This document shows positions 8,551 through 56,089 of a stretch of DNA of 64,000 nucleotides, one piece after another. The stretch comes from Niveispirillum lacus. GTDB taxonomy: Bacteria > Pseudomonadota > Alphaproteobacteria > Azospirillales > Azospirillaceae. The notes below the pieces were generated by a model that searched no databases, had not been told where the DNA came from, and saw only the letters and a program-made list of their open reading frames with translations. Position numbers and translations under genes: made by a program. Each line of letters begins with the position of its first letter. The stretch's first letter is position 1. The DNA lies in NCBI RefSeq assembly GCF_002251795.1, contig NZ_NOXU01000032.1, forward strand, positions 124,001-188,000, given 5' to 3'.

Positions 8551-8622
8551 GCACTTCTCCGATTTTGCAAAAAACACAGGATTTCTGCGGGGTTTATGAG
8601 CGCCGCATTGCACATTCTGACT

Positions 8623-38716: not shown

Positions 38717-38717
38717 T

Positions 38718-38966
38718 TCAGAATCCCTTGCAGGTGCTGACGATGATGCGGCGCAAGCGGCGGCGGGCGGTGCCCGTGGGCGAGGTCAGCGCGGACAGTT
38801 CATCGTCGATGGAACGCAGGCGCGAGCGCATTGCGGCTTCCGAGTCGTACTTAACCCGTTGATCTCCGTAGGAAATTTCGGTTGCGCCGCGCAGCAGAGC
38901 GGATTCCAGCTCTGCCCGCATGTTTTCGAGGTAGACGATCCGATCTGGGGTAGACATAGCAGCCAT
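38718..38966 (-). CDS. gpW-like head-tail joining protein
   Basis: 82 aa, helical, MSTPDRIVYLENMRAELESALLRGATEISYGDQRVKYDSEAAMRSRLRSIDDELSAL (abbreviated start). The YGDQRVKYDS pattern is typical of gpW. GAGGTGAG about 9 bp upstream favours ATG 38966. It completes the head before tail attachment. Confidence 0.8.
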   Translation of the reverse strand: MAAMSTPDRIVYLENMRAELESALLRGATEISYGDQRVKYDSEAAMRSRLRSIDDELSALTSPTGTARRRLRRIIVSTCKGF

Positions 38967-38982
38967 TGCGCGACACTCACCT

Positions 38983-41211
38983 CTATCTCATACCCATGAC
39001 GAACCGCGGCCCGCTCCGACGCTTTGCCTTCGGCGCGGGGGCCGGCGGCGGTGGCTGCGGAGAGGGGGCCGGCCCGGCGGCCGAATGATCGGCAGGCCGG
39101 GCCGGCTGCCCGGCGGCGGGAGCCACCCGAGGGGCCGGGCCGATGTCTGGCGATCCCACCACAGGAGATGAATGGTGTCTGTCGCGCTTTTCAACATCGT
39201 GAGCCGAAGATAGCATGGAATTTGGGGCTGACGCAAATCCGGGGCCGGCGGCCGGTGCGGCGGTGACAGAGCCGGACGGCGCACGCTGCGAAACGTAGGT
39301 GTTGAGCCTCAGGCCATAGGCTTTGAGGCCGCACAGCGCTGCGTAGGCGTAGCAAATCAAGTCCCAACTTTCGTTTCGCTTGCGCTCTGGATTCTTCCAG
39401 TAGCGCCTGTATTCGCCGCGTTCGTGGACAGTCACCAACTTTTCGGCAGTAAGTTGCTCGAAGAAGTCCTTTTCGAGGTTTTGCCCGAAGCGGATGTAGC
39501 CAGGCCCGTGACTTTCGATTTTCAGGCGGGCGTGGATTTGGTCTTTGGCGGCGTTGGTTCCAACGATGTAAAAAGTCTTGCCGGACTTGGACATGGAGAC
39601 CTTTGACGGCCACACTGGCGACCGCTGGCCGTTACGCTCGGACGCGCCTTTGATTGCCCAAACTCGCCGGCCGGCGCGGGCGGCGGCGAATTCGTAGACC
39701 CTCTGGGCGTGATGGCCACCGGTGTCGATGGTGGTGGCCTGGATGTGAAAGGCTCGGCCATCCCAACGGCTTACGGGGGTCTTGAGGAGTTTGTCGAGTT
39801 CGAGCCAAACGTGACCCTGGCCTGGATCGCCAGGGATCACAACATGGTCGATGACCGACGAGCACTCGTCGATGCCATAGGAAACGATCAACGCCTCAAG
39901 ACGATTGTCCTGGACGTCGACGGAGCAGACAAGCAAGCTGGAATCATCAGGGATGATCCCGGAGTACGATTCGCGGCGTGACATGAGTACGCCGTCGTCC
40001 AGTTTCTGCCCGCGTTCTTCGTATTCTTCGGCAAGCTGCGTATTGATGAAGAACCGAAGCTGTTCTACATCATCCTGGACGGTAATCCATTTGTATACGA
40101 GTTCGGATACTGTTTGCGTGCAGCTGTAGAGCTTACTGGCCCAGTAGCCTGCGTGGCGGTTGGAAACGGCGCGCTTGCCACAGTGGCGGCACAGAGCGCG
40201 GCCGATCAGGTGCTCATCGTCCCAGTCCCACATGCGCGTGACCTGGGGATCCTGGTCTTCGCCGCAGCACCTGAAGCGCCGGGTTTGCCGCCAGCGGATG
40301 GTGGTGCGGATAGCGTGATGTCGTTCGCGATCGGTCCAGCCCGCGCCGCAGCCTTCGCAGTAAACCCTGGCGGTTTCGGGCTGGTGATTTCCGTCTTCGT
40401 CCTTATCCCACTGGACCTGCGACCAACGAAGGATTTGCTCATGGTCGCAGTGCGGGCAGCGGACGTAGGGCCGGCGCTGGTCGGATGAGGCGTAGCTTTT
40501 CGAGATCGACCCTTCTTTCGTCGTCGGGCTGCAGGTGCGGATCGACAAGGAATTGGCCACGAAGGAGGACATGCGCTCTTCAGCGAGCAAAATGGGGTCG
40601 CCCTCGGGCGTGGTGGAATACTTGTCGACCTCATCAAGGCCAACGACGCGGATCGAGATCATAGCCAGGTTTGTGGGCGAGCCGGCGGCGGTGATGAGCA
40701 GGTCGCCGCCGGGGAATTTCTTGTAAGCCTGGGTGCTTTTGCCATCACGATCGGCGGCATCGCGCACAAGGTCGCGCAGCACCGGCGAATGGCGGATCAA
40801 AGGCGAAATCTTTTTCTTGGAAAAAGTCTGGACCGCATCTTCTTTCGGCTGAACAAATAAAATTGGGCATGGATCAAGATGAGCGAAGTATCCGAAAGTA
40901 TTCTCTAAGCAACTCGTTTTCATTATTTGGGTGCATGACATAATAGTTATTGTCCGCACGCCCGGTTCGGTGACTGCGCGCATAGGCCCACGGGCAACTT
41001 CTTGCGTAGAAGTGCGCCACTTGCCCGGAATTGCATTGCCCTCCGGTCCCAGGACTCGAAATTCATCTGCCCATTGGTCAACGGTAAGTCTCGGCGGCGG
41101 CAGAAGTGCGCCGCGAGACTTTATGCGCAGCAGTTGGCCCAGGGCCTGCCGGGCTTCAGGCGCGGTTCTCATCATCGCCTCCATCGGCCTGGTTGTTACG
41201 ATGTTGGTCAT
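38983..41211 (-). CDS. Terminase large subunit, lambda gpA family
   Basis: Packaging ATPase and nuclease, 742 aa from ATG 41211. Motifs: a degenerate Walker A-like CTQIMKTSCLEN, ILFVQPKEDAVQTFSKKKISPLI, VGLDEVDKY (Walker B), a zinc-binding CPHCDHEQ with CEGCG, and the nuclease part with VDVQDNRLEALIVSYG and WDLICYAYAALCG. After NTYVSQR an 85-residue Pro/Ala/Gly-rich tail follows; a promoter-like site lies inside the DNA of this tail. Confidence 0.93.
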   Translation of the reverse strand: MTNIVTTRPMEAMMRTAPEARQALGQLLRIKSRGALLPPPRLTVDQWADEFRVLGPEGNAIPGKWRTSTQEVARGPMRAVTEPGVRTITIMSCTQIMKTSCLENTFGYFAHLDPCPILFVQPKEDAVQTFSKKKISPLIRHSPVLRDLVRDAADRDGKSTQAYKKFPGGDLLITAAGSPTNLAMISIRVVGLDEVDKYSTTPEGDPILLAEERMSSFVANSLSIRTCSPTTKEGSISKSYASSDQRRPYVRCPHCDHEQILRWSQVQWDKDEDGNHQPETARVYCEGCGAGWTDRERHHAIRTTIRWRQTRRFRCCGEDQDPQVTRMWDWDDEHLIGRALCRHCGKRAVSNRHAGYWASKLYSCTQTVSELVYKWITVQDDVEQLRFFINTQLAEEYEERGQKLDDGVLMSRRESYSGIIPDDSSLLVCSVDVQDNRLEALIVSYGIDECSSVIDHVVIPGDPGQGHVWLELDKLLKTPVSRWDGRAFHIQATTIDTGGHHAQRVYEFAAARAGRRVWAIKGASERNGQRSPVWPSKVSMSKSGKTFYIVGTNAAKDQIHARLKIESHGPGYIRFGQNLEKDFFEQLTAEKLVTVHERGEYRRYWKNPERKRNESWDLICYAYAALCGLKAYGLRLNTYVSQRAPSGSVTAAPAAGPGFASAPNSMLSSAHDVEKRDRHHSSPVVGSPDIGPAPRVAPAAGQPARPADHSAAGPAPSPQPPPPAPAPKAKRRSGPRFVMGMR
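39207..39236 (-). promoter_or_regulatory. Prophage promoter 6, inside the terminase 3' end
   Basis: Minus strand: ATTTGCGT with -35 TTGCGT (39231-39236), 18 bp, -10 TATCTT (39207-39212). It would serve gpW, portal and later genes. Confidence 0.5.
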
Positions 41212-42034
41212 CGGCTTGCCTTTGGATTGCAGCGTCGTAGCCCAAGGCCTCCAGCGCGACATCGATCTCTTTCCGCATTTCACGGAAAAGCGTTTCCCCG
41301 TCAGCGCCAGCGAGCGTTTGCGATACGCGGGCCGGCAGGGATCGCAGGCGAGCCCGGACCTCTGAGTATTCCTCGGACACGATCTGGACCACATCGGCGA
41401 GCATCAGAGTCTCTTGGCGAACGCGCGCGAGTTGGTATTCAGCCATGCGGGCTTCGGCCGACAGTTTCCGACGCTGCGCCTCCTCCTTATCCATCAGACT
41501 GTCGTCGTCCATTCCGGCAGCGGCGCGGGCTCTTTCCTCGCGCCAGGCGATGACGGCAGCGATGTCTATTTGCCAGCCGCCGCCATCCGCCGCATTGTCG
41601 GGACGCTGATGCACAGGCATGCCGTCAGCGATCCAGGCGCGGATGGTATTGCGGGACCGGCCAGTCATCATCGCGAGCTGCGAAAGGGACACGTATCGCC
41701 CACCAGGCACCGCACCATCATCAGCTTCGCAGTCGTCGACAGCCATATCATCCAGGCGGACGGCAGCGGCTGGCTCATCATCGGCGACACGGCGTCTGAC
41801 ATCTTCCGGTGCCGGACCAGCGAGCATCAGACCTTCCGGAGCGGCGGATTTGCGGGGGCGGCCACGGCCGCGCTTCGGAGGCGGGCCGGCAAGGCGAATA
41901 CCAGCAGCTGGAGCGGCACCGAGTATCGGGGCGGGATCTGCGTCGATGGGATCCTGGGCATGGCCAGCATCATCACCACCGACTTCGAAGAACGGGACAT
42001 CGTGGAGGATGGGTGGCGGGTCGCGGCGGGGCAT
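41156..42034 (-). CDS. Terminase small subunit, Nu1-like
   Basis: 292 aa. Contains an AT-hook-like KRGRGRPRKS near residue 55, then a winged-helix DNA-binding part (YVSLSQLAMMTGRSRNTIRAWIADGMPV), the usual cos-binding region of Nu1. A helical C terminus follows (AEYQLARVRQETLMLADVVQIVSEEYSEVRARLRSLPARV). The end overlaps the large-subunit start by 56 bp. Start 42034 (MPRRDPPP). Promoter-like site 7 lies upstream. Confidence 0.85.
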   Translation of the reverse strand: MPRRDPPPILHDVPFFEVGGDDAGHAQDPIDADPAPILGAAPAAGIRLAGPPPKRGRGRPRKSAAPEGLMLAGPAPEDVRRRVADDEPAAAVRLDDMAVDDCEADDGAVPGGRYVSLSQLAMMTGRSRNTIRAWIADGMPVHQRPDNAADGGGWQIDIAAVIAWREERARAAAGMDDDSLMDKEEAQRRKLSAEARMAEYQLARVRQETLMLADVVQIVSEEYSEVRARLRSLPARVSQTLAGADGETLFREMRKEIDVALEALGYDAAIQRQADDQHRNNQADGGDDENRA

Positions 42035-42072
42035 CGTGGTGTCCGAAACTGTCGAAAATCGAGAATGACGAC

Positions 42073-42101
42073 AGTCTACATTGCAGCGGCGCGGCACGCA
42101 A
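42073..42101 (-). promoter_or_regulatory. Prophage promoter 7 (terminase operon)
   Basis: Minus strand: ATTTGCGT with -35 TTGCGT (42096-42101), 17 bp, -10 TAGACT (42073-42078), followed by GTCGTCATT. 39 bp upstream of the small-terminase start. Confidence 0.7.
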
Positions 42102-42180
42102 ATCTGGGAGGCTGGAGGATGGAGGGGGCCGGGGAGCAAGCCAGGTGTCATGGCCCAAAACCATGAAATCGCAAGCACAT

Positions 42181-42198
42181 CAAAGTGCGCGAATTACC
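42181..42198 (-). promoter_or_regulatory. CACTTT motif, copy 1
   Basis: 18-bp sequence identical to 42555-42572. On the minus strand it reads GGTAATTCGCGCACTTTG and lies 147 bp upstream of the small-terminase start. Confidence 0.5.
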
Positions 42199-42436
42199 CC
42201 TTTTTCATTTTTCCACACTGGGTCCCCGGCGGTCTGGCATCCATTCCTTCCCACCACCGACCAGCATCCCCCTCATCTCCTTCCTGCTGGCCCAGCTCCC
42301 GCTTCATCGCCCACCGCTTACCCACGCGCCGCGCAGCCACAGCAGCCATCACCACCGCAGGCGCAGCAGCGCCAGGCCAGGGCGGAAGCGATGCTGGCGT
42401 CTGGCCCTGGGGATGGAGGATAGCGGCGGCGGACAT
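42194..42436 (-). CDS. Possible small protein, 80 aa
   Basis: Frame starting MSAAAILHPQGQTPASLPPWPGAAAPAVVMAAVAARRVGKRWAMK at 42436, with AGGA 4 bp upstream and a CACTTT motif 119 bp upstream. An alanine/valine-rich stretch followed by a basic, glutamate-rich tail could be a short membrane anchor. The region is otherwise a gap of 550 bp. Doubtful, but better than its overlapping frames. Confidence 0.35.
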   Translation of the reverse strand: MSAAAILHPQGQTPASLPPWPGAAAPAVVMAAVAARRVGKRWAMKRELGQQEGDEGDAGRWWEGMDARPPGTQCGKMKKG

Positions 42437-42554
42437 GGGATCCTGCGGAGGTGTGGGCGGACCGGTGCGGATGGAGGATGATGGGCTGGCACAACAGCGG
42501 TGGAGGGCCAACCCGGCGGTGTCAGATAGGAAAATGGTCTTGTGTCGGACAGAA

Positions 42555-42572
42555 CAAAGTGCGCGAATTACC
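42555..42572 (-). promoter_or_regulatory. CACTTT motif, copy 2
   Basis: Exact copy of 42181-42198. Immediately upstream on the plus strand is TGTCGGACAG, an operator-like half dyad. Confidence 0.5.
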
Positions 42573-42600
42573 TGTGAGGACCAAAAACTTTTCGACCCGG

Positions 42601-43224
42601 CTACGGGACGATGGAGGCATTGACCAGCGCCTGGATTGCATCGGCGACCTTGCCGGTATTGCGCTCAGCGGCAGCCCTTGCGTCCTCAGTAAAGTGCAGC
42701 TGGGGCTTGTGAGTGCGCTTGCGTAGGAAGGCGATGAGCAACTCGGAGCGGGCGGGCCGGCCGGCGGCGGCACCGCGCTTGGCCTTCGGTCGCCGCCAGA
42801 TGCCGGGCTGAGAACCGGGGCCTGGGCGACCGGCGAATGCGTCAGGGCGAGCCAAGGCGCGTGAGATGGCGCCCCTGGGGATGTTGCCGTTGGCGTTGGT
42901 GCGCTGTCCGAAAGGCATCAGGAGCGGCTTGCCGGGAGCAACATGTGTCGTGCCGCCGGTTTCGATTTTGATGAGGTATGCAGCCTGAAGCTCCTGCGCG
43001 AAGACGCGGGCAATGAGCGAGCCTGGCGCGGCGTAGGCAATGCGGTAGGCTCGCTTCGTAAAAGGTGTGGGTTTGTCGATGCGGACATCCAGCTGAGCCG
43101 TGACGTGCGCCTGGACAGCTTTCGCGATGTCGTTTACCCCACGAGCCACGACACGCTCCAGCTTCGCTGACATGCGCCCCAAAGCATCAGAGACCCGGCC
43201 GGCGTTGGTGCGTATGTCGATCAT
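42601..43224 (-). CDS. HK97 gp10-like neck / minor tail protein
   Basis: 207 aa. MIDIRTNAGRVSDALGRMSAKLERVVARGVNDIAKAVQAHVTAQL followed by TPFTKRAYRIAYAA and GTTHVAPGKPLLMPFGQRTNANGNIPRGAI (excerpts). The initial long helix with RALNDTAKxVQ-like wording is that of gp10-type head-tail proteins and related late proteins. It lies outside the main late operon, next to the terminase. An in-frame ATG 12 bp upstream is possible. Confidence 0.6.
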   Translation of the reverse strand: MIDIRTNAGRVSDALGRMSAKLERVVARGVNDIAKAVQAHVTAQLDVRIDKPTPFTKRAYRIAYAAPGSLIARVFAQELQAAYLIKIETGGTTHVAPGKPLLMPFGQRTNANGNIPRGAISRALARPDAFAGRPGPGSQPGIWRRPKAKRGAAAGRPARSELLIAFLRKRTHKPQLHFTEDARAAAERNTGKVADAIQALVNASIVP

Positions 43225-43325
43225 GGCCGGGGGCATAGGGGCGGTCGCTTCTCTGGTTGTGGCTGTCTCTGCTGGGGATGATGGCAGATTGTCGGATATG
43301 CAGCAAGCGGATGATCGACATTTCT

Positions 43326-43341
43326 CCAAAGTGCGGAAATC
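43326..43341 (-). promoter_or_regulatory. CACTTT motif, copy 3
   Basis: Minus strand GATTTCCGCACTTTGG, followed by AGAAATGTCGATCATC. About 100 bp upstream of the 43224 start. Confidence 0.5.
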
Positions 43342-43388: not shown

Positions 43389-43676
43389 TCAGGATCCGTC
43401 GCCGCGGCCGCGCAGGTGAGATGACATGCGGTCAATGCGATCCAGGGTGCCAACTAACTCCGCCCTTCGACTCTCCAACATTTTGGCCAGGACCGGCCAG
43501 ACCCATCCTGGGATTGGCCGCTGACCGGCAGCCCACCGCTGCACGAGCCGTCCGTCAATAGCATCCCGAGGGCCGCGAGGGTGATGTGGGCCAAGCAGTC
43601 GAGCGAGTGGCTGACGCCACTCACCCCCTAGCAGCAGTTCGCCTGCGAGAGCGAGGTCTTCCTGGTCGCGTGTCAT
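43389..43676 (-). CDS. Small HTH (Cro/CI-like) DNA-binding protein
   Basis: 95 aa. LAGELLLGGEWRQPLARLLG ... DGRLVQRWAAGQRPIPGWVWPVLAKMLESRRAEL follows the helix-turn-helix pattern of Cro-like proteins (recognition helix around RLVQRWAAGQ). Start 43676 overlaps the stop of the 482-aa gene (ATGA), so they are translationally coupled. A candidate reader of the repeated motifs in this region. Confidence 0.65.
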   Translation of the reverse strand: MTRDQEDLALAGELLLGGEWRQPLARLLGPHHPRGPRDAIDGRLVQRWAAGQRPIPGWVWPVLAKMLESRRAELVGTLDRIDRMSSHLRGRGDGS

Positions 43677-45121
43677 GCCGCGACCTCATTCGCATCGGCT
43701 TGGCGCCAGGAGACCCAGGAGACCCACTCCTCCCAAAACTGGGACGACACGTGGCTGCTGGCGGACGTGTCCTCGACCGTGTCGAAGAAAAACGACTTTC
43801 CGATCTTCGTCACCACGACCGGCATCCCGTCTGGCAGCCGCACGACATCGCCAACGGCGGGGACGCGCTGCGTCAAGGCGAGGAACTGGCCGACCTTCGG
43901 CCGGGACGCCTCAGTACGCCGGAACGCCGCTGCCTCTGCCTCGGTGGCCTCGCGGGTATAGACGTAGCAGTGATCATCTCCGTCCTGATGCCAGGACTGA
44001 CCGGATCCGGTCGACACGAGGATGCTAAAGCCGTCGCTGAAGACCTCACCTGGAGCGGGGGCGTCGGAGACGGTGAACTGTCGGCGGGTCCTCCTGGCCT
44101 CGCTGCGGGCCTCAGCCCTCTCCCGCTCGGCCACCAGGGCCGCGGCGGCGGCGCGGTCATCATCCGCCTTCTTGGCCACCAAGGCTGCAACCGCGTCGCG
44201 CAGGGCGCCGAGGATCCTCTTCGGATCCTCGACGGCGAGGTCAAAGGTAACGGCCTTGTCGCTGACACGGCCGAGCCGGATGAGCGCCTTGTACGCGCCG
44301 TCGCAGTAGCCGCCGTAGCTGGCAGTGGCCTGCGTCTCGCTGAAGGTGATCGTCAGGGGTGCCCATGGCTGGGCCATGATCGCCGCACGGGTACGGGAAA
44401 TCCTGACGCCCGCCTCGTCGATGGCCTTGATCGCAGCCTTGGCGTAGCGGGTGCTGATCGAGTACGACTTCAGCGAGGAGTCCCAGCGCGCGGTGGGGAC
44501 AGCCTTTATTAGGTCGGCGATCGCATCGCCCGGCCACCCAGCCAGGATGATCTGCCCGCCAGAAACAGAGGCTGCGATCCCGGGGACCTGTGGCAGGACC
44601 ACGTCGCCCTTCGCTGCCTTCGCAGCGGCACGGGTGGTCTTGGCGAAGAGGCCCAGCAGGGCCTCGGCGTGCTCGAATGGCACGCCAAGGCGATTGGGTG
44701 CGCCGACGATCGCCTCCCCGCCGATGCGCTTGAGGGACGGGCGGGCGCTGGCAGGACCTTCGACCTCATAGCGCCAGGCCGACGAGGAGGCGGAGACGGT
44801 GAAATCGCCGTGGACCCCCGGAGCGATGCCGCCGCGGTCGCCAGCCATGACCAGGGCATCCAGTGCCGCCAGCAGGTCCGCTTCCGTCGGGCCGGGCATG
44901 ATCACCACACGGCCGTCGCTCGCCGTCGAGACATCCGTCTGGCTGGCGGCCCACTCGTAGACGCTTGGGGCATACTCCATCGACGGGGGCAGGACAATCT
45001 GCAGCTTGGCATTCTCGGATCTCGCGTTGTCGGCATGGCCGACGCGCAGCCCGGACGGCCGCTGGCCGAGTTCGATGCCGCGGACTACGCCTTCGGAGAT
45101 GATGCGGATGGATATGGACAT
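43673..45121 (-). CDS. Uncharacterised 482-aa protein with HARP-like stretch
   Basis: AGGAG lies 7 bp before ATG 45121. The middle region IKAVPTARWDSSLKSYSISTRYAKAAIKAIDEAGV resembles the HARP DNA-annealing domain. A charged helical linker (ADDDRAAAAALVAERERAEARSEARRTRR) precedes a C-terminal part with VYTREATEAEAAAFRR and WEEWVSWVSW. It is encoded in the early region with replication genes, so a role in DNA annealing or recombination is plausible. Its leader has a 7-bp hairpin (45149-45165), a TGTCC/GGACA dyad (45170-45189), a CACTTT motif and iteron element A. Confidence 0.6.
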   Translation of the reverse strand: MSISIRIISEGVVRGIELGQRPSGLRVGHADNARSENAKLQIVLPPSMEYAPSVYEWAASQTDVSTASDGRVVIMPGPTEADLLAALDALVMAGDRGGIAPGVHGDFTVSASSSAWRYEVEGPASARPSLKRIGGEAIVGAPNRLGVPFEHAEALLGLFAKTTRAAAKAAKGDVVLPQVPGIAASVSGGQIILAGWPGDAIADLIKAVPTARWDSSLKSYSISTRYAKAAIKAIDEAGVRISRTRAAIMAQPWAPLTITFSETQATASYGGYCDGAYKALIRLGRVSDKAVTFDLAVEDPKRILGALRDAVAALVAKKADDDRAAAAALVAERERAEARSEARRTRRQFTVSDAPAPGEVFSDGFSILVSTGSGQSWHQDGDDHCYVYTREATEAEAAAFRRTEASRPKVGQFLALTQRVPAVGDVVRLPDGMPVVVTKIGKSFFFDTVEDTSASSHVSSQFWEEWVSWVSWRQADANEVAA

Positions 45122-45285: not shown

Positions 45286-45556
45286 TGTGCAATTGTGTAG
45301 TTGCTGTGTAGGCCCGCTACACAGCATAAATCATTGATATAATTGACTAAAATGACATTTGTGTAGTTGTGTAGCGAAATCCGAAAAACCTCTATACGTA
45401 TATATAAGGAGCCCATATATCAGTTTGATATCTTCCCATATTTTTCCGTCATAAAAATTCTTTTAAGCTGCACAACTACACAAATGGCAAAAAGTCCATA
45501 TTTATCAATGAGCTATACTGTGCAGCGGGCCTACACAGCAACTACACAGCTACACA
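45286..45556. repeat. Iteron element A: twelve TGTGYA-type heptamers in dyad order
   Basis: Heptamers start at 45286, 45294, 45305, 45360, 45368, 45519 (TGTGTAG type) and 45317, 45468, 45476, 45531, 45542, 45550 (CTACACA type). The left 38 bp and right 38 bp are near-perfect reverse complements. The central core contains CTATACGTATATATAAGGAG (45392-45411). It aligns without gaps to element B at +4342 bp. Non-coding, AT-rich; no frame with a start and ribosome site was found. Confidence 0.9.
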
Positions 45557-45818
45557 AAGCCGGGCCAGGGCTGCCGCACAAAAAAATTAACTAACGTTAA
45601 CCATTCCGTTCTTCCGAAGGCACGATCCCGCCAGCACTTCAGCCGCCCTTCACCCGGCGCCGCAGGCGTCGGTGGCGACCCCGCAGGGGTGGGGCGAAGC
45701 CCGGTTGTCGGCCGTCGCGCCGCGGATGCAGAAAGGGCGGCACGCATTGCTGCGGCCGCCCCTGGATAGTTTGTGTGTCGCCGTGGTGTGTCTGCCATGG
45801 GCCCTGCCTGGTGGCTTA
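45557..45818. other. GC-rich block downstream of element A
   Basis: No convincing gene. About 45655-45710 repeats, with changes, the block at 49993-50037. On the minus strand it contains CGCC-TGCG-GCG, a hairpin with an UNCG-type loop, and ACCCC/GGGGT. Confidence 0.5.
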
Positions 45819-46190
45819 TCACCGCAGCGCAGGAAGGCCCCGCAGGTCGCCGCCGACATCCTCGGCCTCGATCGGTCCGATCCCAAGGCACGTCACCGTC
45901 GGCGCCGCGAAAACCGTGTGCCCGGCATCGACCACGAGAAAGGTGCCGCACCTGTCGCTGTAGGCAGATGCCAGGGCGGCCAGGTCGGCGGCGGTGGCGG
46001 CTACCAAGACGATCTTGCGCGGCGCATCTGAAGCAACATAGGCTGCCGCAGCGCCTGGAAAGCGGGCCGTGGCGTCAAGGAAGGCGTGGAGGAAGGCATG
46101 GCCGGCTTGGGCCATCATCTTGCCCCGAGCGCCACCAGCGGCGTCGATAGCCGCCCGTGACACTATGCAATACATCGTCATCGTCGTCAT
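45819..46190 (-). CDS. Pth2-type peptidyl-tRNA hydrolase
   Basis: 123 aa. The Pth2 signature is present: RGKMMAQAGHAFLHAF (K, Q and H in the catalytic region), a KIVLVAATAADLAALASA stretch, then VDAGHTVFAAPTVTCLGIGPIEAEDV, matching the D-x-G-x-T...P-x-T...LxIGP end of the family. Pth2 frees tRNA from stalled peptides and is common in archaea and eukaryotes; bacteria normally use the unrelated Pth1. Start 46190 overlaps the stop of the previous gene (ATGA). Lacks the N-terminal membrane helix of eukaryotic forms. Confidence 0.75.
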   Translation of the reverse strand: MTTMTMYCIVSRAAIDAAGGARGKMMAQAGHAFLHAFLDATARFPGAAAAYVASDAPRKIVLVAATAADLAALASAYSDRCGTFLVVDAGHTVFAAPTVTCLGIGPIEAEDVGGDLRGLPALR

Positions 46191-46849
46191 GGGGATGGGT
46201 CATCGTCCGCGGCCGCCATAGCCGCTTCGATCACCGAGAAAGCGGGCGCATAGTCAGGCGGATCGACTGGTGCAGGGGCAAGCGCAGCTGCTGCCGCAGC
46301 CTCGCCAGATCCACCGCCATCATCGCCATCGCTACCCATTGCGGCGGCATACTGATCCGGGAAAATCCCCTGTACCCCCGCGACAAACGACATAACCGTG
46401 TGATGGATTATAATAGCTACAGCTACCCGCTGAGCATCCGTCATCGCCGCAGGGCCAGCCTTTGCGATGAGTTGGCAAAAAATCTTATCCTGGATAGGAA
46501 TTTTTCGCACATCCAGGCCAAGCTCATCGCGGCAAACAGTCCTAAAATCTGGGTCCTGCATACCAGCCGCCGTGGCGAGCAGATGCATAAACTGCCTACT
46601 CATAGCGGGCGTGAGATCGGATATCCGCTCCCGGATATGCTCAAGCGGAACGGTCGAGGAAGAGACCCTGCACGCCGGCAGCAGTATCCGCATCGTTCGT
46701 ATCGCTTCATATGCGATGGCTTGATCATCGCCAATCCGGGCCATCTCCAAGATTGCCGCGGCCCGATAAGGCCGCGAGTAGATATCCCTCGGTGTCCATG
46801 GCAGGACTGGGCCCGGCTTCGCATCGTGATTTTGTTGGGTCGGCAACAT
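46187..46849 (-). CDS. Uncharacterised early protein, 220 aa
   Basis: A very strong ribosome site (AAGGAGGTGGAG) precedes ATG 46849. The N-terminal 120 residues are helical (AAAILEMARIGDDQAIAYEAIRTMRILLPACRV). A central hydrophobic helix (VAVAIIIHHTVMSFVAGVQG) and an Ala/Pro/Asp-rich tail follow. Coupled to the Pth2 gene and divergent from ruvC. Function not recognised. Confidence 0.6.
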   Translation of the reverse strand: MLPTQQNHDAKPGPVLPWTPRDIYSRPYRAAAILEMARIGDDQAIAYEAIRTMRILLPACRVSSSTVPLEHIRERISDLTPAMSRQFMHLLATAAGMQDPDFRTVCRDELGLDVRKIPIQDKIFCQLIAKAGPAAMTDAQRVAVAIIIHHTVMSFVAGVQGIFPDQYAAAMGSDGDDGGGSGEAAAAAALAPAPVDPPDYAPAFSVIEAAMAAADDDPSP

Positions 46850-47049
46850 ATCTCCACCTCCTTGCCGCCGCGCCGCGCGCGTGCGGGAAAAGTGGCCGGC
46901 CCCGATTGGAGGCCGGCCGAGTTTGGCAGTAGGAGAAGGAAAGCAAACAACAGGCTTTGGCGAAGCCCGCAGATCTGAATGTAGGTCAGAGTGTCGGATG
47001 ATGCAAGAAAAATATTGTGTTGTCTGTCGAAATAATCGACAATCGACAC
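46850..47049. promoter_or_regulatory. Divergent control region with TGTCGA/TCGACA dyad
   Basis: Lies between the 220-aa gene and the RuvC-like gene. TGTCGA (47026-47031) and TCGACA (47037-47042) form a dyad with 5 bp spacing, followed by another TCGACA just before ATG 47050, so the RuvC-like gene start may be covered by a repressor. CTTTGGCGAA near 46952 resembles the extended CACTTT motif. Confidence 0.45.
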
Positions 47050-47535
47050 ATGAAGATTCTGGCGATTGACCCCTCGAAACGAAACTCTGGCTGGGCCGTC
47101 ATTGACGCGGTTCGCTGGACCCGCTTGGCGAGCGGAGGCCAGAGTTTCCAGCACATTCATGACTATGCTGAGATTGGGCAGGCTTTTGAGGGATGGCTGC
47201 TGGGTATGTGCCGCAAGCACAGGGTCGACGTACTTGCGATCGAGCGTCCACCGATGCGCGGGGCGAGCACTTACCTGCTTTTTGGGCTGGTGTGGACCGC
47301 ACACAGGGTTGGCCACCACCTCGGCTTGAGGCGTATGGAAACGGGCCCCAGCGAGCTGAAAAAATGGGCCGCGGGTAAGGGAGATGCCGACAAGTCGGAG
47401 ATGGTCACCGCTGCCCGGAAAGCTTTTCCTGGGCACGAACCGGCGGACCATGACGAAGCAGACGCTCTGCTTATCGCAGCCTGGGCTGCGACCGTCATCC
47501 GTAGCGAAGCGGAGAAAAAGAGGAGAGCGGCCTGA
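47050..47535 (+). CDS. RuvC-like Holliday junction resolvase
   Basis: 161 aa. The RNase H-type fold is visible: first catalytic Asp in MKILAIDPSKRNSGWAVID, Glu in VLAIERPPMRG, and the late Asp pair in HEPADHDEADALLIAAWAA, in the order usual for phage RuvC proteins. It would resolve branched DNA before packaging. Only plus-strand gene in the early region and flanked by operator-like dyads. Start 47050 (MKILAID) is preferred to upstream alternatives because motif I should be near the N terminus. Confidence 0.85.
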   Translation: MKILAIDPSKRNSGWAVIDAVRWTRLASGGQSFQHIHDYAEIGQAFEGWLLGMCRKHRVDVLAIERPPMRGASTYLLFGLVWTAHRVGHHLGLRRMETGPSELKKWAAGKGDADKSEMVTAARKAFPGHEPADHDEADALLIAAWAATVIRSEAEKKRRAA

Positions 47536-47541
47536 TCATCG

Positions 47542-49494
47542 TCAGGCTGCCTTTCCCGGAGAAGCTGGCGAACCTGGCAGGTGATAGCCCGATTTGTGAA
47601 GAGCGGACATCAACTTGTCGATGACATCCCGGGCTTCGGGAAAGTCAGGCAGGACGTCACGAATGCCGGCAAGTGCGTAGATCGGTGAGGCCATCGCCAG
47701 ATCGTGCGCAGCGCCGTGTAGATTGTCCAGGTCAGCGGGTAGGCGCTTCCAGCCACCGGCTTCCACCGCCAGTTCCTGCTCCTCCGTCATGCGAACCGCT
47801 AGATCCGTAACCGCATCCAACAGCCGCCCGGCCAGTTCCCTACGCTCGCCGATACCGGCACCCTGGAAAGCAACATCGGTCGCAAGCCGGATCGCCTCAG
47901 ACCGCGTTACGTCACCCCTCCGCGCCGCAGCCATAAAGGCCTTGGCCGCAGTGCGTTCGCAGAAATGGTCCGGCGCAATCATCGTCAACCTGACCGGCGC
48001 ATCCACATCCTCGTCGCCAGCGGCCGACCCCCGCGCCATTGAAGGTGGCGGGATGACCTGGATCGCGGCAGTGTAATCCGGCTGCTGGCCATCGCCAGCT
48101 TCGGCGAAAAGTTCGGCGGCGATGCGTGCAGCGGAATAGCGTATCCGCATCCAGAGATCCTGGGGAATCTTGCGCGAAGCCGCGTCCTTTTCGGCGATGT
48201 GGCGATTGCCGGGCCAGCCGTCCGGCTCCTGGGTGTAGTTGACGATCGGCTCGATGGTCAGCGATATGTGGGGGCCGGCGGTATCGCGGGCGATGGTTGC
48301 ATCGAAGCCTGCGGCGCGAAGGTCGGCCAGCGAAACGACATGGTCAGCCAGCAGGCGGGTCCTGAGTGCATCCGCATACTGTTCCCATCCTGCCCGGACC
48401 TCCGCCGGAGCGGCGAGCCACCGAGCTAAGTCCGGCGGCATCGGCCAGCCTGTGGCTGGGTCGATATGAGTAGGTAGGAGATCCAGGTCAACCAACAGAC
48501 CCAGGAAGGCCGCGATGCCCTCCGGATTGTCCGAATATCGACTGGGCGTCATGGACAGCGCGCTTGCGGCGCGGTCAGCCTCGTGCATCGCGGCATTGAT
48601 GATCAGCGGCGCTATGTCCGTGGCCAAGCCATCCGCAATGGCCCGGCCCCAGTTTGCCTGGACCTCCAGGATCTCGATGCAGGCCCCCAAGTGCGTCCTG
48701 ACGCCCTCTATAACCTCGTTCGGGATCTTCGCGCCCGGCTGCTGCACAGCAACCCGGGGGTCGCCACCTGACCGGCACAGCAGCAGCTCGCCGCCGGCAT
48801 CGCGCAGGGCGCGCATGGCCGATCGGGCCGCGGCGTAGACGCTGGGGCTGACGGGGCAGCCGGCGGCGATGTTGTCAGCGGGCCGATGGATGGGTAGGAA
48901 ACGGTCAGCAATGGCTGCGCGGACTACTGGCGTCATCGCCACCCTGAAGGTTTCCCATGCGTCTTCAGATGCCGGAGCATCTGGGTCCGCGTCTACGGCG
49001 TCGACGCGACGGACCGTAAGGTCCGTTTCGCACCAAACCGCATCGCTGATTATCTTTATACCCAGGTCCTCAGCGAGAGTGGTGGCCTGGATGGATAGGT
49101 CGTGGCGCTGCCAGTCGGGCCGATCGGCGCCGGCGAGCTGTGCAAGAACGCGCGGGACATAAGCTGTAAGCTTCGTCTTGTCTGTGTCAGGGTGCAGCCA
49201 ATACCGCATCCGACGAACGTAGGCTGTATCGGCGACAGCCATTGGATCGTCATGAATCCCAGAAACGAAGCCGGGTTCGCCTGGCTTCACGCGGTTTTGC
49301 CCGGCACCTGCGGCTGCCCAAAGCGTCGGCCGCAGGGACAGGTCAACAACATCGCCGTGCTGCTGGAGCGTGACAAGGGTCGGTTGGTCAGTAAGCGCTG
49401 TTGCCTCGAACTGGGCAACCCGGCCGTCCGGCCCACGGGCCGGGTAGGAATAGCGTATTATGCTGTCAGCTGCTGCCAGTCCGGCGGTGGTCAT
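47542..49494 (-). CDS. Uncharacterised early protein, 650 aa
   Basis: AGGAG lies 8 bp before ATG 49494 (MTTAGLAAADSIIRYSYPARGPDGRVAQ). Globular, no membrane helices. Segments such as LSLRPTLWAAAG, YVRRMRYWLHPDTDKTKLTAYVPRVLAQLAG and ATDIAPLIINAAMHEADRAASALSMTPSRYSDNPEGIAAFLGLLVDL (excerpts) do not match a family I know. Located between the RuvC-like and primase genes, so possibly a replication or recombination factor. Iteron element B and a CACTTT motif lie upstream. Confidence 0.6.
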   Translation of the reverse strand: MTTAGLAAADSIIRYSYPARGPDGRVAQFEATALTDQPTLVTLQQHGDVVDLSLRPTLWAAAGAGQNRVKPGEPGFVSGIHDDPMAVADTAYVRRMRYWLHPDTDKTKLTAYVPRVLAQLAGADRPDWQRHDLSIQATTLAEDLGIKIISDAVWCETDLTVRRVDAVDADPDAPASEDAWETFRVAMTPVVRAAIADRFLPIHRPADNIAAGCPVSPSVYAAARSAMRALRDAGGELLLCRSGGDPRVAVQQPGAKIPNEVIEGVRTHLGACIEILEVQANWGRAIADGLATDIAPLIINAAMHEADRAASALSMTPSRYSDNPEGIAAFLGLLVDLDLLPTHIDPATGWPMPPDLARWLAAPAEVRAGWEQYADALRTRLLADHVVSLADLRAAGFDATIARDTAGPHISLTIEPIVNYTQEPDGWPGNRHIAEKDAASRKIPQDLWMRIRYSAARIAAELFAEAGDGQQPDYTAAIQVIPPPSMARGSAAGDEDVDAPVRLTMIAPDHFCERTAAKAFMAAARRGDVTRSEAIRLATDVAFQGAGIGERRELAGRLLDAVTDLAVRMTEEQELAVEAGGWKRLPADLDNLHGAAHDLAMASPIYALAGIRDVLPDFPEARDVIDKLMSALHKSGYHLPGSPASPGKAA

Positions 49495-49601
49495 GTCTGC
49501 GATCTCCTGGCGCTGGCGGTGGCTGCCGCCTTGGTGCGCTTCTTTGGATGACAATAGCCCGGATGGATGATGTGTCGCAAGACGTTTTTCGCCAAATCGA
49601 C

Positions 49602-49617
49602 GAAAGTGCGGTAATCC
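49602..49617 (-). promoter_or_regulatory. CACTTT motif, copy 5
   Basis: Minus strand GGATTACCGCACTTTC, followed by GTCGATTTGGCGAAAA; 108 bp upstream of the 49494 start. Confidence 0.45.
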
Positions 49618-49627
49618 AGAAGGTGGA

Positions 49628-49898
49628 CATGTAGTCATGTAGGAGCTATGTAGGGCCGCTACATGGCGTAACTATCTGATATGACTGCCAAAAATGCTGA
49701 AAATGTAGTTATGTAGTCTAAACCGAAGAATCCCTATACGTATATATAAGGAGCCAATATATCAGTTCGATACCCTCCCATATTTTTCCATCACAAAAAT
49801 TCTTTTGAGCTACATAACTACATAAACTGCAAAAACTCTAATTAGATCAATGCATTGATGGATGTAGTGAGGCTACATAGCTTCTACATCCCTACATA
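49628..49898. repeat. Iteron element B: twelve NATGTAG-type heptamers in dyad order
   Basis: Heptamers at 49628, 49636, 49647, 49702, 49710, 49861 (ATGTAG) and 49659, 49810, 49818, 49873, 49884, 49892 (CTACAT) correspond one-to-one with element A at exactly -4342 bp. The core CTATACGTATATATAAGGAG is at 49734-49753. Linkers between heptamers have diverged more than the heptamers. Non-coding. Confidence 0.9.
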
Positions 49899-50169
49899 AC
49901 CTTGGCCAGGGTTTCTGCACCGAAAATTAATGAATGTTAACCACCGCCTTCACCGAAGGCAGGATTCCGCCATGATCCCCACCGCCTTAACCACGGCGCC
50001 GAAGGCGTCGGTGGACCCGCAGGGAGGGGCGAGTGCGATGGCTGGTTGTGTCGGTTTTGCTGATCGTCAACGACAACCGAATCAGCGCAAAAAGACGAAT
50101 GGCGGCCCAACCGAGCCGCCACCCATCACTCATTTATAAATGTAGCAGGCTGGGCCGTCTCTTGACCTC
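49899..50169. other. Second GC-rich block, downstream of element B
   Basis: Includes GGTTAAC-like and GC-rich sequence matching 45590-45710; on the minus strand CGCC-TTCG-GCG (UUCG loop) near 50000. It follows the primase stop in the direction of transcription. No convincing gene. Confidence 0.45.
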
Positions 50170-53100
50170 TCAAAACCGCATTCTGCGCTGCTGCTGCGCC
50201 GGAGCCTGTTGCTGCACATGACCGCCGTTGTAATAGCTGCCAGTCCTACCGGCGGCCTGGTCATTTCGATCCGAAGAAGCCGGCTCCGGCAACAGATACA
50301 GGCCCTTCCAGATCATTCCGCCTGCATTGCGGCTTTCATGAAAACCATGATCCTTCAAAGCACCCTTCAGCCGATCTTTCGCCATCGGCTGCGTTCCAGA
50401 GTCCAGGCACCACTTCTTGTATGCGTCGTACAGCCTCGATTGTGCGACCCAGGGCTTATCACTACTCTCATCCCGCTCAACCCGCTCAGCAATGAACTGA
50501 CCAACGCGGTCTTGCTCCCCGCGGTACTCAACCACAGCATCCGTCACGCGTCGCGGCCGGATCAGCCCATGTTTGTGCCAGTCCACAGCCCCCTCAACGA
50601 TCCAAGCCAGAATCCCGTCCATCTCCCCACGCAGATCCATAGCGAGATTCTTGTCCGCCAGCGGCAAATCCTTCATCCGCTGGTCATTTTCTTCACCAGC
50701 GACGCGCCACAGACGCAGGAACCGCAGAACTTCCTGCCGCCTCCAGATGCCCCTGTCGGTACCCGAAATGCGCAGCAAACTATTGCAAAGCAAGAAGATT
50801 TTTCCGTTGAAGCGAAACTCGACGACCTCGTTGCTGTAGCCATACCGGGCGCTCATCTGATCGCCGCCGGTCAACCTTTTCACGAGCCCCTCAGCCATCG
50901 CTTCCCCGCGTTCAGGTTCGCTGGCTAACACGAACCGGGCTGCCCGCAAGGCAAGAATGTCGGCCCGGGGCTTACCGCCGGAGTCAGCGTCAGCCTTTAT
51001 CAGCAGCGCCGGTTCTATCGTCCGGGCGTAGCTACCGAGGATGTCCCTGACTGCCTCGAACAACACCGTTTTCCCGTTCGCGCCTTCGCCCCAAACCGAC
51101 ACAAGCTTCTGTTCTGTCGCAATCCCCCATGCAGCGTAGCCAATCAAAGCTTTGAAATACCGCACATATTCAGGATCAACGGAGCCATCTTCTTCAGCCA
51201 GCACCTCCTCGACGAACCTGGTCCAGCGTGGGCACGACGCCGGCCTGGGCGACCATCCGCAGCTGGTGATTTGGGTAAGTAGCATTGCCGGATCGTGGGG
51301 TGTCAGCGCGCCGGTGCGGAGGTCAACAATGCCGGACCGGGTGTTGAGAAGGTGCGGGTGAGCATCCAAGGCTTTATCGTCCACCTCCAGGTGCGGCCTA
51401 AGGAAAGACACAGCGGAGCGGATGAAAGCAGCGGACTGAGTGTGATCACAGTATTTCGCGTGTTCGGCCCGCTCTTTGTCAGCAAAATCCCGCATTTCTC
51501 CGTCGGACGGGCCGTGAAGATTCCCGGCGACTTTCCTGTATTCAGCGGCCGCCTTGGATGCCTTCGTTGGCCCGTAAACCCCTGCAAGAGCGCACGCTTC
51601 TGCAAAATCCAGCTCAGCCTCGATCTCGAAGGTGAGCTGTTGGGCTTTGGCCATGACTCGTACCTCGTCCGGGTCATGGACCCACGACATGCCGTCCCAT
51701 ACGTACCAGCCAAGGCCGCCGGCATGCAGGATTTCGTGGCGGAAACGGGCGGCCATACGAAGCGCAAAGCCGACCTCAGTCCGAGCGTGTGAGAGGTATC
51801 CTTCAAGGGCCCGGCGGGCAGGTGCGGCGAAGCCGTCGGCCGACAGGGCTGTGTCGACTTTCCTGAAAAGCTCAATGATGGGCTTGTAGATGCGCAGCCG
51901 GGTGCATTCGGCTTCACCGAGCGTTTCCACATGCGCCAAAAAGGCCCGCCTGAGATCGTCATCCAGAAGCAGCTCCTTCCGGGGGCGGTCAACGATCCGG
52001 CGAACAGCGACCTTGGCTGCGTCGACCGCGAATTCCTGCTGTTCCTGCATTTCCATCTTCCGTATATGCCCCTCGCTGCCCACTTCCTGGGTTTCGTCAA
52101 TCAAGCCGCGCAGCGCGTCACCCGCCAGCCGATCGTATTCTTCGTAATCATCCTCGCCGCCGATCGCAGGGCTCTCATCAACGCCGCCAGCCGCAGCAGC
52201 AGCGGCATCCCGCCGGTCCTGCTCTTCCTGAAGCAGCCGGTCCGCCAGAGCCTGCAGCTCTTCAACCAGCTCTTCCGTCACCTGCCGGAACGTCGCGCCG
52301 GCATACAGATCTGGGCCACGGCCAGCACCTTCGCGGGTCAAAAAGTCATCCAGGCCTTTGCCCAGGGCCTCGGGCCAGTCCAGCACCGAAGCGGGGATAT
52401 TGCGCGCCAGTGCTTCTGCGGCCATTGCCGCAACTGCTTGAGCAACGCCAAATTTCCGTTTGAAATCAGCGTCCAGTGCGATGACGAGTTCATTGTAAAA
52501 TGATCCGCCGTCAGCATCTACCAGCTGGCAATCGACGACCTCATCGATTGCCAGGCGCCACGATGACACACCCGGGATGGACAGGGCGTAATCGCCTATG
52601 GACGTAACGAGATCGGCCTTGATCTCACCTTCTGTAACTATCAGCCTGCCGCTTTGACGGGCGGCCGTAACGGCCGGGAAATGGACAGCGGGTACGCTGC
52701 CCGGAAGCCACAGATACTTTTTCCCGCCATCCTCAGTCTCAACGCGCTGGCGCATTCCAACGATGTCGCCCGCGTGATTGCGGACTGGTACGAGCAGTGC
52801 GCCGGCGACCATTTGAAAACGCTGCGAACCGGGTTCAGGCATACCGGGAACTTTTTCGGCGCCCTTGATGTCTCGTATCAGCAGCCCCACGCCGTCCAGC
52901 GCCTTCGCCGTAGCATAGCCAGCCACCTTCATGATCTCTTCGGTCATGCCGGGCCGGGCCAGCAGCGCGCCCCTATGCCCATCGCTCAACGGGCACATAG
53001 AAAGCACTTTTTCATAAACGGCGTCGCAGGTCAGCGCGCTGGCCGCAGGCTTCCTGGCGCGGGCCTCGGCTTTCGCGTCCCGCGCTGCCAGCCGCCGCCG

Positions 53101-53343
53101 CGCTGTGGGCACCCAACCGTCGCGCCGTTCGTACCCACGGGCTTCATGCCATGAGATCTCGCGACCTTCTGGAGAATAATGGAATTCGTCGTGCGCATGT
53201 CCGCAGGTCCAGCGTATCGCGCCAGTCGTGACGTGCGTTTGATAGCAGCAAGGCCAATCCTTCGCGCCACAAGCCCAACAAGGGTTTTTCCGATTTGCCC
53301 GTGTCGCCGACGTTATGTCGGACCACACTCTACCTTCTGCCAT
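50170..53343 (-). CDS. P4/D5-type primase-helicase
   Basis: 1057 aa. N-terminal zinc finger (CWACGAKDWPCC ... RWTCGHAH), a toprim-like primase region (GRLIVTEGEIKADLVTSIG, VIALDAD), a helical middle, then D5_N and an SF3 helicase: Walker A VWGEGANGKTVLFEAV near residue 752, ADILALRAARFVLASEPERGE, FNGKIFLLCNSLLRISGTDRGIWRRQEVLRF. The C terminus includes a winged-helix-like PWVAQSRLYDAYKKWCLDSG. TAGGA precedes ATG 53343. It primes and unwinds DNA at the phage origin. The family includes P4 alpha, which binds iterons directly. Confidence 0.93.
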   Translation of the reverse strand: MAEGRVWSDITSATRANRKNPCWACGAKDWPCCYQTHVTTGAIRWTCGHAHDEFHYSPEGREISWHEARGYERRDGWVPTARRRLAARDAKAEARARKPAASALTCDAVYEKVLSMCPLSDGHRGALLARPGMTEEIMKVAGYATAKALDGVGLLIRDIKGAEKVPGMPEPGSQRFQMVAGALLVPVRNHAGDIVGMRQRVETEDGGKKYLWLPGSVPAVHFPAVTAARQSGRLIVTEGEIKADLVTSIGDYALSIPGVSSWRLAIDEVVDCQLVDADGGSFYNELVIALDADFKRKFGVAQAVAAMAAEALARNIPASVLDWPEALGKGLDDFLTREGAGRGPDLYAGATFRQVTEELVEELQALADRLLQEEQDRRDAAAAAAGGVDESPAIGGEDDYEEYDRLAGDALRGLIDETQEVGSEGHIRKMEMQEQQEFAVDAAKVAVRRIVDRPRKELLLDDDLRRAFLAHVETLGEAECTRLRIYKPIIELFRKVDTALSADGFAAPARRALEGYLSHARTEVGFALRMAARFRHEILHAGGLGWYVWDGMSWVHDPDEVRVMAKAQQLTFEIEAELDFAEACALAGVYGPTKASKAAAEYRKVAGNLHGPSDGEMRDFADKERAEHAKYCDHTQSAAFIRSAVSFLRPHLEVDDKALDAHPHLLNTRSGIVDLRTGALTPHDPAMLLTQITSCGWSPRPASCPRWTRFVEEVLAEEDGSVDPEYVRYFKALIGYAAWGIATEQKLVSVWGEGANGKTVLFEAVRDILGSYARTIEPALLIKADADSGGKPRADILALRAARFVLASEPERGEAMAEGLVKRLTGGDQMSARYGYSNEVVEFRFNGKIFLLCNSLLRISGTDRGIWRRQEVLRFLRLWRVAGEENDQRMKDLPLADKNLAMDLRGEMDGILAWIVEGAVDWHKHGLIRPRRVTDAVVEYRGEQDRVGQFIAERVERDESSDKPWVAQSRLYDAYKKWCLDSGTQPMAKDRLKGALKDHGFHESRNAGGMIWKGLYLLPEPASSDRNDQAAGRTGSYYNGGHVQQQAPAQQQRRMRF

Positions 53344-54040: not shown

Positions 54041-54484
54041 ATGACCAAGTCCAGCGCAGTCCTTCCGCCGCCGACCCTTGCCGGCCCCAGCCTCCTCGAC
54101 ATTGGCGCGCCCGCCGAAGCTGTGAAGGCCGATTTCGCGCGTCGGTTGCAGCATGCGCTGAACGCGAAGGGCTGGAATCAGAGCGATTTGGCCCGTGCGG
54201 CTGATATCGGACGGGACAGCGTTTCGGTCTACCTGCGCGCAAAGAGCCTGCCGGGACCCAAGCATTTGACCAGCATCGCTGCGGCTTTGGGCGTCGAACC
54301 GGACGATTTGTTGCCGGGCGCATCGGATGCGGCAACGGCGCGGACTGGCGTCGCTGCCATGGAAGTGATGCAAACCGCCGCTGCCGGCCGGGTCTGGCTG
54401 AAAATCAACCGTAGCGTGTCCATGCGCCAGTTGGGAAAGATAATAGAGATCCTAGATAGTGAGCCCGCCGGCGACGATAGCTGA
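54041..54484 (+). CDS. CI-like repressor, HTH without peptidase domain
   Basis: 147 aa. An XRE-type HTH is visible: FARRLQHALNAKGWNQSDLARAADIGRDSVSVYLRAKSLPGPKHLTSIAAALGVEPDDLLPG (excerpt), near residues 30-95. The C-terminal 50 residues are helical (VWLKINRSVSMRQLGKIIEIL) and probably dimerise the protein. There is no LexA-type Ser-Lys peptidase, so RecA-stimulated self-cleavage is not expected; induction may use an antirepressor. Divergent from the early genes. Confidence 0.85.
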   Translation: MTKSSAVLPPPTLAGPSLLDIGAPAEAVKADFARRLQHALNAKGWNQSDLARAADIGRDSVSVYLRAKSLPGPKHLTSIAAALGVEPDDLLPGASDAATARTGVAAMEVMQTAAAGRVWLKINRSVSMRQLGKIIEILDSEPAGDDS

Positions 54485-54907: not shown

Positions 54908-56089
54908 ATGGCCAAGGCCAAGCCGAAGACGGCGACAACCGGTGCGTCCAGCCCCCATCTCGTTCCTGTGCTGTCACCAGGTTCGGTTACCTGGCGCTGG
55001 TCCATTCGTTGGCGAGAGGATGGTCGTAAGCGGGAAAAGGCAACCGGCCTGCCGGTCGAGGACCGGGCAGGTGCAGAGCGGCTGTTAGGTGAATTTCTGG
55101 TAGAGTGGTCTGCGCGACAGAGCGCTGCGCCGGGCGCTGCTCTGCGGCCGGACCGTATTACCTGCGGACAGGCAATGACGATTTACGCCCATGAGCACGT
55201 CCCAGGCACCGCAGCGCCCGAACGGATCGGTTGGGCACTCAAGGCCCTGGCAGAATTCTGGGGCGACGTTCCTGTTTCTGAGGTACGTGGCGAAACATGC
55301 AGGCGCTACGTCGCCAGCCGCACAATGGAAAGGCGCATTCCAGACACAGACCCGGCGGAATACCGAACGGTTCCCATTGCTCCGGCGACAGTGCGTCGGG
55401 AACTTGGCGTTCTTGCCGCTGCCCTCAACTACTGCGCAAAAGAGGGGCACATTACTGCGGCGCCAAGGGTGTGGTTGCCGGAAGCGCCACCGCCCAAGGA
55501 AACTTATCTGTCGCGGCAGGAGGTTGCTGGACTGGTCAAGGCCGCTCGAAGGGACAGGCGGACCCGATGGCACCTACCACTGTTTGTGCTGGTGGGCTAT
55601 TACACGGGCAGGCGCAAGGATGCGATCTTGTCGCTTCGGTGGGAACCGAACGCGGAGGGAGGACATGTCGACCTGGATAAGGGCGTCATTGACTTCCGGC
55701 CGGTCGGGCGGGCCGAAACTGCCAAACGCCGAGGACGGCTTCAGGTTCCGGCCAGGCTCTTGCGCTTCCTGCGGTACGCTCGGCAGCGAACCGAGAAGTT
55801 CGTCTTCGAATATGGAGCAGACGGGAAAGAGCCGCGTCGAATCAAAGATGTGAAGCGCAGCTTTGCCAGCGCGGCAGCTGCTGCTGGCCTGGATCCGACG
55901 AAGGTCACTCCCCACGTCCTGCGCCACACTTGCTTGAGTTACCTGGCCAACGCTGGGGTGCCCCTATTCAGGGCTGCCGCCTGGGTCGATCTGACACTGG
56001 ATACCGCAGAGAAGGTCTACGCTCACCACGACGGGCGCCATGACGATATCAGGGACCTGCTGGACCGCGGCGGTCGTGCAGGGCGCTGA
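54908..56089 (+). CDS. int: Tyrosine integrase
   Basis: 393 aa. N-terminal arm-binding region (SPGSVTWRWSIRWREDGRKREKATGLPVED) and SAM-like core domain lead to a catalytic domain with Arg in YYTGRRKDAILSLRW (about residue 235), HVLRHT (about 336-341) and Tyr in KVYAHHD (about 370). The gene points at the tRNA and ends 142 bp from it. Three CAGTGAT-family repeats lie between its end and attR. It mediates integration at the anticodon arm of tRNA-Arg. Confidence 0.93.
   Translation: MAKAKPKTATTGASSPHLVPVLSPGSVTWRWSIRWREDGRKREKATGLPVEDRAGAERLLGEFLVEWSARQSAAPGAALRPDRITCGQAMTIYAHEHVPGTAAPERIGWALKALAEFWGDVPVSEVRGETCRRYVASRTMERRIPDTDPAEYRTVPIAPATVRRELGVLAAALNYCAKEGHITAAPRVWLPEAPPPKETYLSRQEVAGLVKAARRDRRTRWHLPLFVLVGYYTGRRKDAILSLRWEPNAEGGHVDLDKGVIDFRPVGRAETAKRRGRLQVPARLLRFLRYARQRTEKFVFEYGADGKEPRRIKDVKRSFASAAAAAGLDPTKVTPHVLRHTCLSYLANAGVPLFRAAAWVDLTLDTAEKVYAHHDGRHDDIRDLLDRGGRAGR

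Follow-up and report, generated by a model that had tools for sequence, protein, structure and literature searches.

Two paralogous iteron arrays in a Niveispirillum lacus prophage as probable copies of a SaPI/PICI- and P4-type replication origin

Two arrays of short repeats, elements A and B, lie close together in a 64-kb stretch of Niveispirillum lacus DNA (the window; Table 1), and their repeats differ from one array to the other by a single letter that is switched throughout. What do these paired elements do, and are they read by one protein or by two?

A and B are paralogues of 271 bp, each with twelve heptamers at equal relative places, and they align without a gap at a constant offset of 4342 with 197/271 positions identical, a recount that agrees with the initial annotation of this DNA. 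The sites are short, lie 8-12 bp apart and occur in either orientation, and in both elements they follow the dyad-like order that had been claimed (+++-, ++, core, --, +---). The reported switch at heptamer position 2 was likewise found, with G in 12/12 A sites, A in 12/12 B sites and identity in 0/12. TGTGTAG is exact in 9/12 A sites, and the three degenerate ones are TGTGCAA at 45286 and TGTGCAG (on their own strand) at 45468 and 45519. Heptamer positions 3-7 are identical between A and B at 56/60 positions, the cores at 79/93 and the linkers at 56/94, confirming that the linkers diverged more than the sites; this comparison and the ungapped paralogy both agree with the earlier proposal that the iteron elements arose by duplication followed by divergence. 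The proposed bounds were sound in that paralogy spans the 271 bp, but both ends were set too short, as the duplication extends approximately 25 bp further left and, after a 3-bp shift, rightward to about 45675/50014 (family D2, 62 nt, 76%). Clustering of RTGTAG in A and B is not due to chance, since such sites never numbered more than 3 per 271 bp when the 64-kb window was simulated 200 times with a Markov model. Furthermore, a search of the entire 4.97-Mb genome found the pair TGTAGTTNTGTAG only within A and B, at 3 places. Both cores contain the alternating tract TATACGTATATATA (45393-45406 in A and 49735-49748 in B), which falls within the longest A/B identity, 22 bp from 45392. These two identical 14-mers are the only alternating pyrimidine-purine runs of at least 13 in the window.

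Table 1. Features of the prophage region, with alternating tracts found beside D5 genes of other loci
Feature	Position	Strand	Remarks
Portal, large and small terminase and minor tail protein genes	37205-43329		
482-aa orphan gene, adjoining A	43673-45121	-	No family found (Pfam, PHROGs, NCBIfam)
Element A, second copy	45286-45556	.	12/12 sites with G at position 2
Core of A	45375-45467	.	93 bp, 31% GC
RuvC-like resolvase gene, between A and B	47017-47535	+	phrog_159, E 2.6e-26
650-aa protein gene, adjoining B	47542-49494	-	No family found (Pfam, PHROGs, NCBIfam)
Element B, candidate main origin	49628-49898	.	12/12 sites NATGTAG
Core of B	49717-49809	.	93 bp, 34% GC vs 61% GC in the window
Terminator-like hairpin, between primase gene and B	50094-50127	-	Weak: 3 sites per 5.1 kb, 3.9 expected
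P4-family (D5) primase-helicase gene, proposed iteron reader	50170-53343	-	1057 aa; TIGR01613, D5_N, Pox_D5
Repressor-like HTH protein gene	54041-54484		Pfam and PHROGs
Integrase gene	54908-56089		PHROGs match
Z-DNA-prone alternating tracts, 17-28 nt	At most 400 bp past the D5 stop		L030, L031, L032, L035, L036, L048, L080, L081, L082, L084, L086, L090, L101

The gene content identifies the surrounding region as a full prophage, with a portal gene (phrog_21, E 3.4e-88) and a large terminase gene (phrog_15, E 1.1e-210) among those listed in Table 1, and a 51,056-bp IMG/VR contig encodes an identical primase (100%) and contains the cores of A and B. The primase stop and the start of B are 272 bp apart, with no ORF of at least 80 aa lying wholly between the two (shorter 61- and 69-aa frames are present). 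A lies 4.3 kb beyond B, between a PTH2-like gene and the 482-aa orphan gene, and adjoins no initiator gene. As a separate observation, the cumulative GC skew of the plus strand over 36-57 kb peaks at B (interval 49000-51000) although the large flanking genes share one strand; the skew turns negative there, opposite to the sign of a usual origin, which speaks against an origin at B.

The protein encoded beside B scored 198.9 bits against NCBIfam TIGR01613 (phage/plasmid primase, P4 family; cut-off, 108.7) and 96.2 bits against D5_N, and its residues 944-1001 matched Pox_D5 at 25.3 bits (cut-off, 21.4). It also aligned with P4 alpha by BLASTP (E 6e-9), in which the Pox_D5 match coincides with the part solved as 1KA8 (residues 671-770). 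The structure model of the C terminus of the N. lacus primase was weak (mean pLDDT, 64.6), and 1KA8 was absent among the 50 matches listed for it. D5_N gave one match in the N. lacus genome.

We consider it likely that the prophage carries its replication origin twice, as A and B, that this origin is of the SaPI/PICI and P4 type and that it is read by this P4-family primase-helicase. The initiator produced from the gene adjoining B would bind the short iterons via its C-terminal domain and would assemble on the direct and inverted sets, with the two assemblies opposed across the AT-rich core. This core, which includes the alternating pyrimidine-purine tract, would then melt, and two helicase assemblies would load there to start replication. 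B has the canonical position directly beyond the 3' end of the initiator gene, with all twelve sites perfect, and A would be a second copy 4.3 kb off, in number and spacing comparable to the P4 crr/ori1 pair. Judged by its perfect sites and its position, B seems to be the working origin, and A an auxiliary copy or one that is drifting or tuned differently. Binding, melting and firing, and the use of one initiator for both iteron alleles, are what we infer from sequence.

The initial annotation knew of no described element like this pair. However, one report (PMC6092414) describes PICI/SaPI origins with an AT-rich stretch between two iteron sets, located beyond the 3' end of the gene for the initiator, a layout that matches, and P4 crr lies just 3' of alpha. 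According to another report (PMC7581432), SaPI Rep, apparently as two hexamers, reads the origin directly downstream via its C-terminal domain, and a D5-type helicase, Cch2, likewise uses its C-terminal domain to bind direct repeats that lie downstream of the helicase gene. The putative SCCmec Cch2 origin described there resembles our locus in having a D5-type helicase with repeats downstream of its gene, but it contains three 5-nt iterons, whereas A and B each contain twelve sites in four symmetric groups.

Relative to the SaPI/PICI origin (pri-rep-ori), B is placed likewise, directly beyond the 3' end of the gene for the initiator, whereas A is not, and both A and B have iteron sets flanking a core that is AT-rich against the window. 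The differences are that two complete copies are present here, in a full prophage, and that the copies differ coherently in their iterons. A PICI is a satellite island without virion genes of its own. Since portal, terminase and tail genes are present here, our locus has the origin type alone in common with PICIs and not the whole element. In the P4 record, alpha, a terminator and crr (ten iterons) follow in order, and ori1 is 4.7 kb from crr. P4 and the N. lacus prophage are alike in their P4-family primase-helicase, in a site just 3' of its gene past a terminator (the hairpin here being weak), in iterons in both orientations (8-bp in P4) and in a second site 4.7 kb away, compared with 4.3 kb here. 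In contrast, P4 has the iteron TGTTCACC, with a few variants, at crr and ori1 alike, sites that differ in layout, whereas A and B differ at position 2. Moreover, ori1 is found 5' of alpha, whereas A is located 3' of the primase gene. These comparisons suggest that A and B belong to a kind of origin already known and that the apparent novelty is an origin duplicated within a full prophage with its iterons switched together. No duplicated origin with switched iterons was seen in the titles and abstract openings of mainly open-access papers on P4, SaPI/PICI, D5 and Z-DNA origins with iterons, and the sole match to the heptamer-pair strings in open-access literature was, by its title, a fish-nutrition paper.

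We drew D5 loci from genomes in the family and class of N. lacus (the class taken as Alphaproteobacteria) and scanned each for repeat clusters without a preset motif. One set used 34/37 D5 matches (leaving out our own locus, one already in the set and one partial), and a second set used 11/15 matches (leaving out our own locus and three short fragments). L039 was removed for having no open frame, and two of the 44 loci left had <400 bp of 3' flank, giving 42. Across these 42 loci, 15 of 25 significant clusters fell within 400 bp past the D5 stop, where uniform placement would put 0.77 of 25 (binomial 5e-17, a value that treats the loci as independent when some are related). No cluster fell in the 400 bp before the D5 ORF, a control smaller than the downstream set because seven loci have <100 bp there. 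A significant cluster at the 3' end was absent in 27/42 loci, and 20/42 had none anywhere. Simulation of 42 loci (40 of them versions of surveyed loci, one simulation each) gave zero clusters at the threshold, and the motif-free scan recovered both P4 sites unprompted.

The clusters beside these D5 genes share both the place and the layout of B. Sites occurred in both orientations in 14/15 of the clusters 3' of D5, and opposed iteron sets around a 52-81 bp core recurred across loci. With one mismatch allowed, L030 and L032 have 3 direct sites, an approximately 80 bp core and 3 inverted sites, and L101 has the order +++-, +++, core, ---. The iteron sequence varies by locus (for example, TAGGGAG, GGAGGGT, TGTCCCG, TGTCATT and TGTAGGG), as expected for initiator-specific iterons. 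By-eye comparison with hand-entered motifs found one iteron common to L030 and L032, whose D5 C termini are 90% identical, another common to L087, L088 and L033, whose D5 C termini are similar, and different iterons in L080 and L082, whose D5 proteins are 66% identical over 322 C-terminal residues. These comparisons are no more than suggestive of a link between iteron and D5 C terminus. Clusters were also present just 3' of D5 in 4/6 named phages with hosts outside the class (phi105, the Lactobacillus phage CR28, Aminay and Methanoculleus virus L4768), overlying an annotated small gene in Aminay and L4768; TG1 and Samy had no cluster just past D5.

In several GC-rich D5 loci the core is not AT-rich and instead contains a long alternating purine-pyrimidine tract. 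With a threshold of 16 nt that was set after viewing the locus data, we counted 21 alternating runs in 46 D5 loci (our window, L041 and P4 included), and 13/46 loci had such a run no more than 400 bp past the D5 stop (Table 1). None was found in the 400 bp upstream of the D5 ORF in the 46 loci, seven of which have <100 bp there. Our own window is not among the 13 since TATACGTATATATA is shorter than 16 nt and lies at least 422 bp past the primase stop. The alternating tracts are possibly opening sites, serving as a melting element in GC-rich hosts.

BLASTN of B against phages and of A against plasmids gave no match, and A as DNA matched only the N. lacus genome among 82 genomes of the order. 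The inner-pair pattern, too, was found only in the N. lacus genome among 385 genomes of the class. In the viral contig collection (viral_contigs), this pattern with a gap of 75-105 bp matched, besides the N. lacus prophage itself, a single further phage contig, L006, whereas no match was obtained when the gap was set to 45-75 or 106-136. The TGTAG pentamer was unclustered in the 11 D5 loci examined from this family (maximum of 3 per 300 bp), and the iterons present in some of these loci were found only by the motif-free scan.

L006 contains 14 TGTAG sites in the order ++-, ++++, core, ---, ++--, with an inner gap of 94 compared with 93 in A and B. Its record encodes a D5_N protein that scored 108.3 against TIGR01613, just under the cut-off of 108.7, and the array lies approximately 3 kb 5' of the D5 gene rather than 3' of it. 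The phage contig with this array also has, near its D5 gene, a gene (L041:10167-10448) for a small protein of 93 aa that matches the C-terminal HTH domain of DnaA (PF08299) and may be a second DNA reader of that phage. A looser pattern additionally matched L042 in viral_contigs and gave five matches in genome_contigs, of which L011 and L013, judged phage-like on reading, were retained; L011 is a near repeat of L006 in layout. None of the three (L011, L013 and L042) gave a D5_N match in its assembly or record, that of L042 being 16 kb long. L042 is a phage contig with terminase- and portal-like frames and a long TTTGTAGTTTTGTAG repeat array in both orientations at 8094-8565. We discarded the remaining three genome_contigs matches, from Neolewinella/Lewinella, as arrays of tandem 8-bp repeats flanked by apparent chromosomal genes; these intergenic TAGTTNTG-like arrays are partly inverted (L009:4600-4730, L010:3245-3390 and L012:6470-6810).

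The switch at position 2 had been ascribed to two different readers or two alleles of one reader. Among alternatives to a shared initiator, the one that survives best is that D5 reads only ATGTAG in B and that A was taken over from, or became tuned to, a different initiator, for example one belonging to a co-infecting phage or satellite, or some phage protein. Two differently addressed origins would account for the completeness of the switch, with position 2 different in 12/12 sites while positions 3-7 match at 56/60, and they are consistent with the similar L080 and L082 D5 proteins standing beside different iterons and with P4 keeping one iteron at its two sites. However, both purines are mixed within single arrays, as in L006 (9 ATGTAG and 5 GTGTAG sites), L011 (12 A-type and 2 G-type sites) and CR28 (6 CCATCAC and 4 CCGTCAC sites). 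Together with the one D5_N match in the genome, these mixed arrays make a single reader accepting either purine possible and do not call for a second reader. In addition, no G-only array occurred among the pattern matches, which by their fixed inner spacing represent only part of such arrays. We regard two separate addresses as unlikely. It is similarly doubtful that one temperate phage maintains two origins addressed by a one-letter iteron code, whether for switchable initiation or with A serving or titrating a foreign initiator. The initial annotation had also proposed a check of whether each array co-varies with a nearby protein. Neither the 650-aa nor the 482-aa protein had phage matches, the former was found in 2/385 genomes (its own and one weak match), and both were rejected as co-varying readers.

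A and B could instead be operators at which a phage regulator sets the downstream minus-strand genes, meaning the 482-aa gene and late genes for A and the 650-aa gene for B. Each element is indeed upstream of an adjoining minus-strand gene, and iterons often double in autoregulation, but a scan for promoters of the sigma-70 type found none in A or B (one match in 5.1 kb, elsewhere), and operators would leave the position 3' of D5 in other loci unexplained, making this role improbable. Partition sites are the least credible option, for although A and B, with short sites 8-12 bp apart in either orientation, resemble the parS-like heptad arrays read by ribbon-helix-helix proteins, no partition gene was found among ten Pfam- and ten PHROGs-scanned proteins of the region (small frames excluded), the prophage has an integrase, and such arrays adjoin D5 genes in other loci.

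With A and B read as two copies of one phage origin served by the D5 primase-helicase, origins of the PICI/P4 type are now placed in a full prophage and beside D5 genes in phages of several host phyla. A simple rule, to search just 3' of the D5 gene, would allow some phage origins to be found from sequence. The tract-bearing cores of GC-rich loci would make the melting step directly testable, and the duplicated origin with switched iterons would provide a natural test of how the specificity between initiator and iteron drifts.
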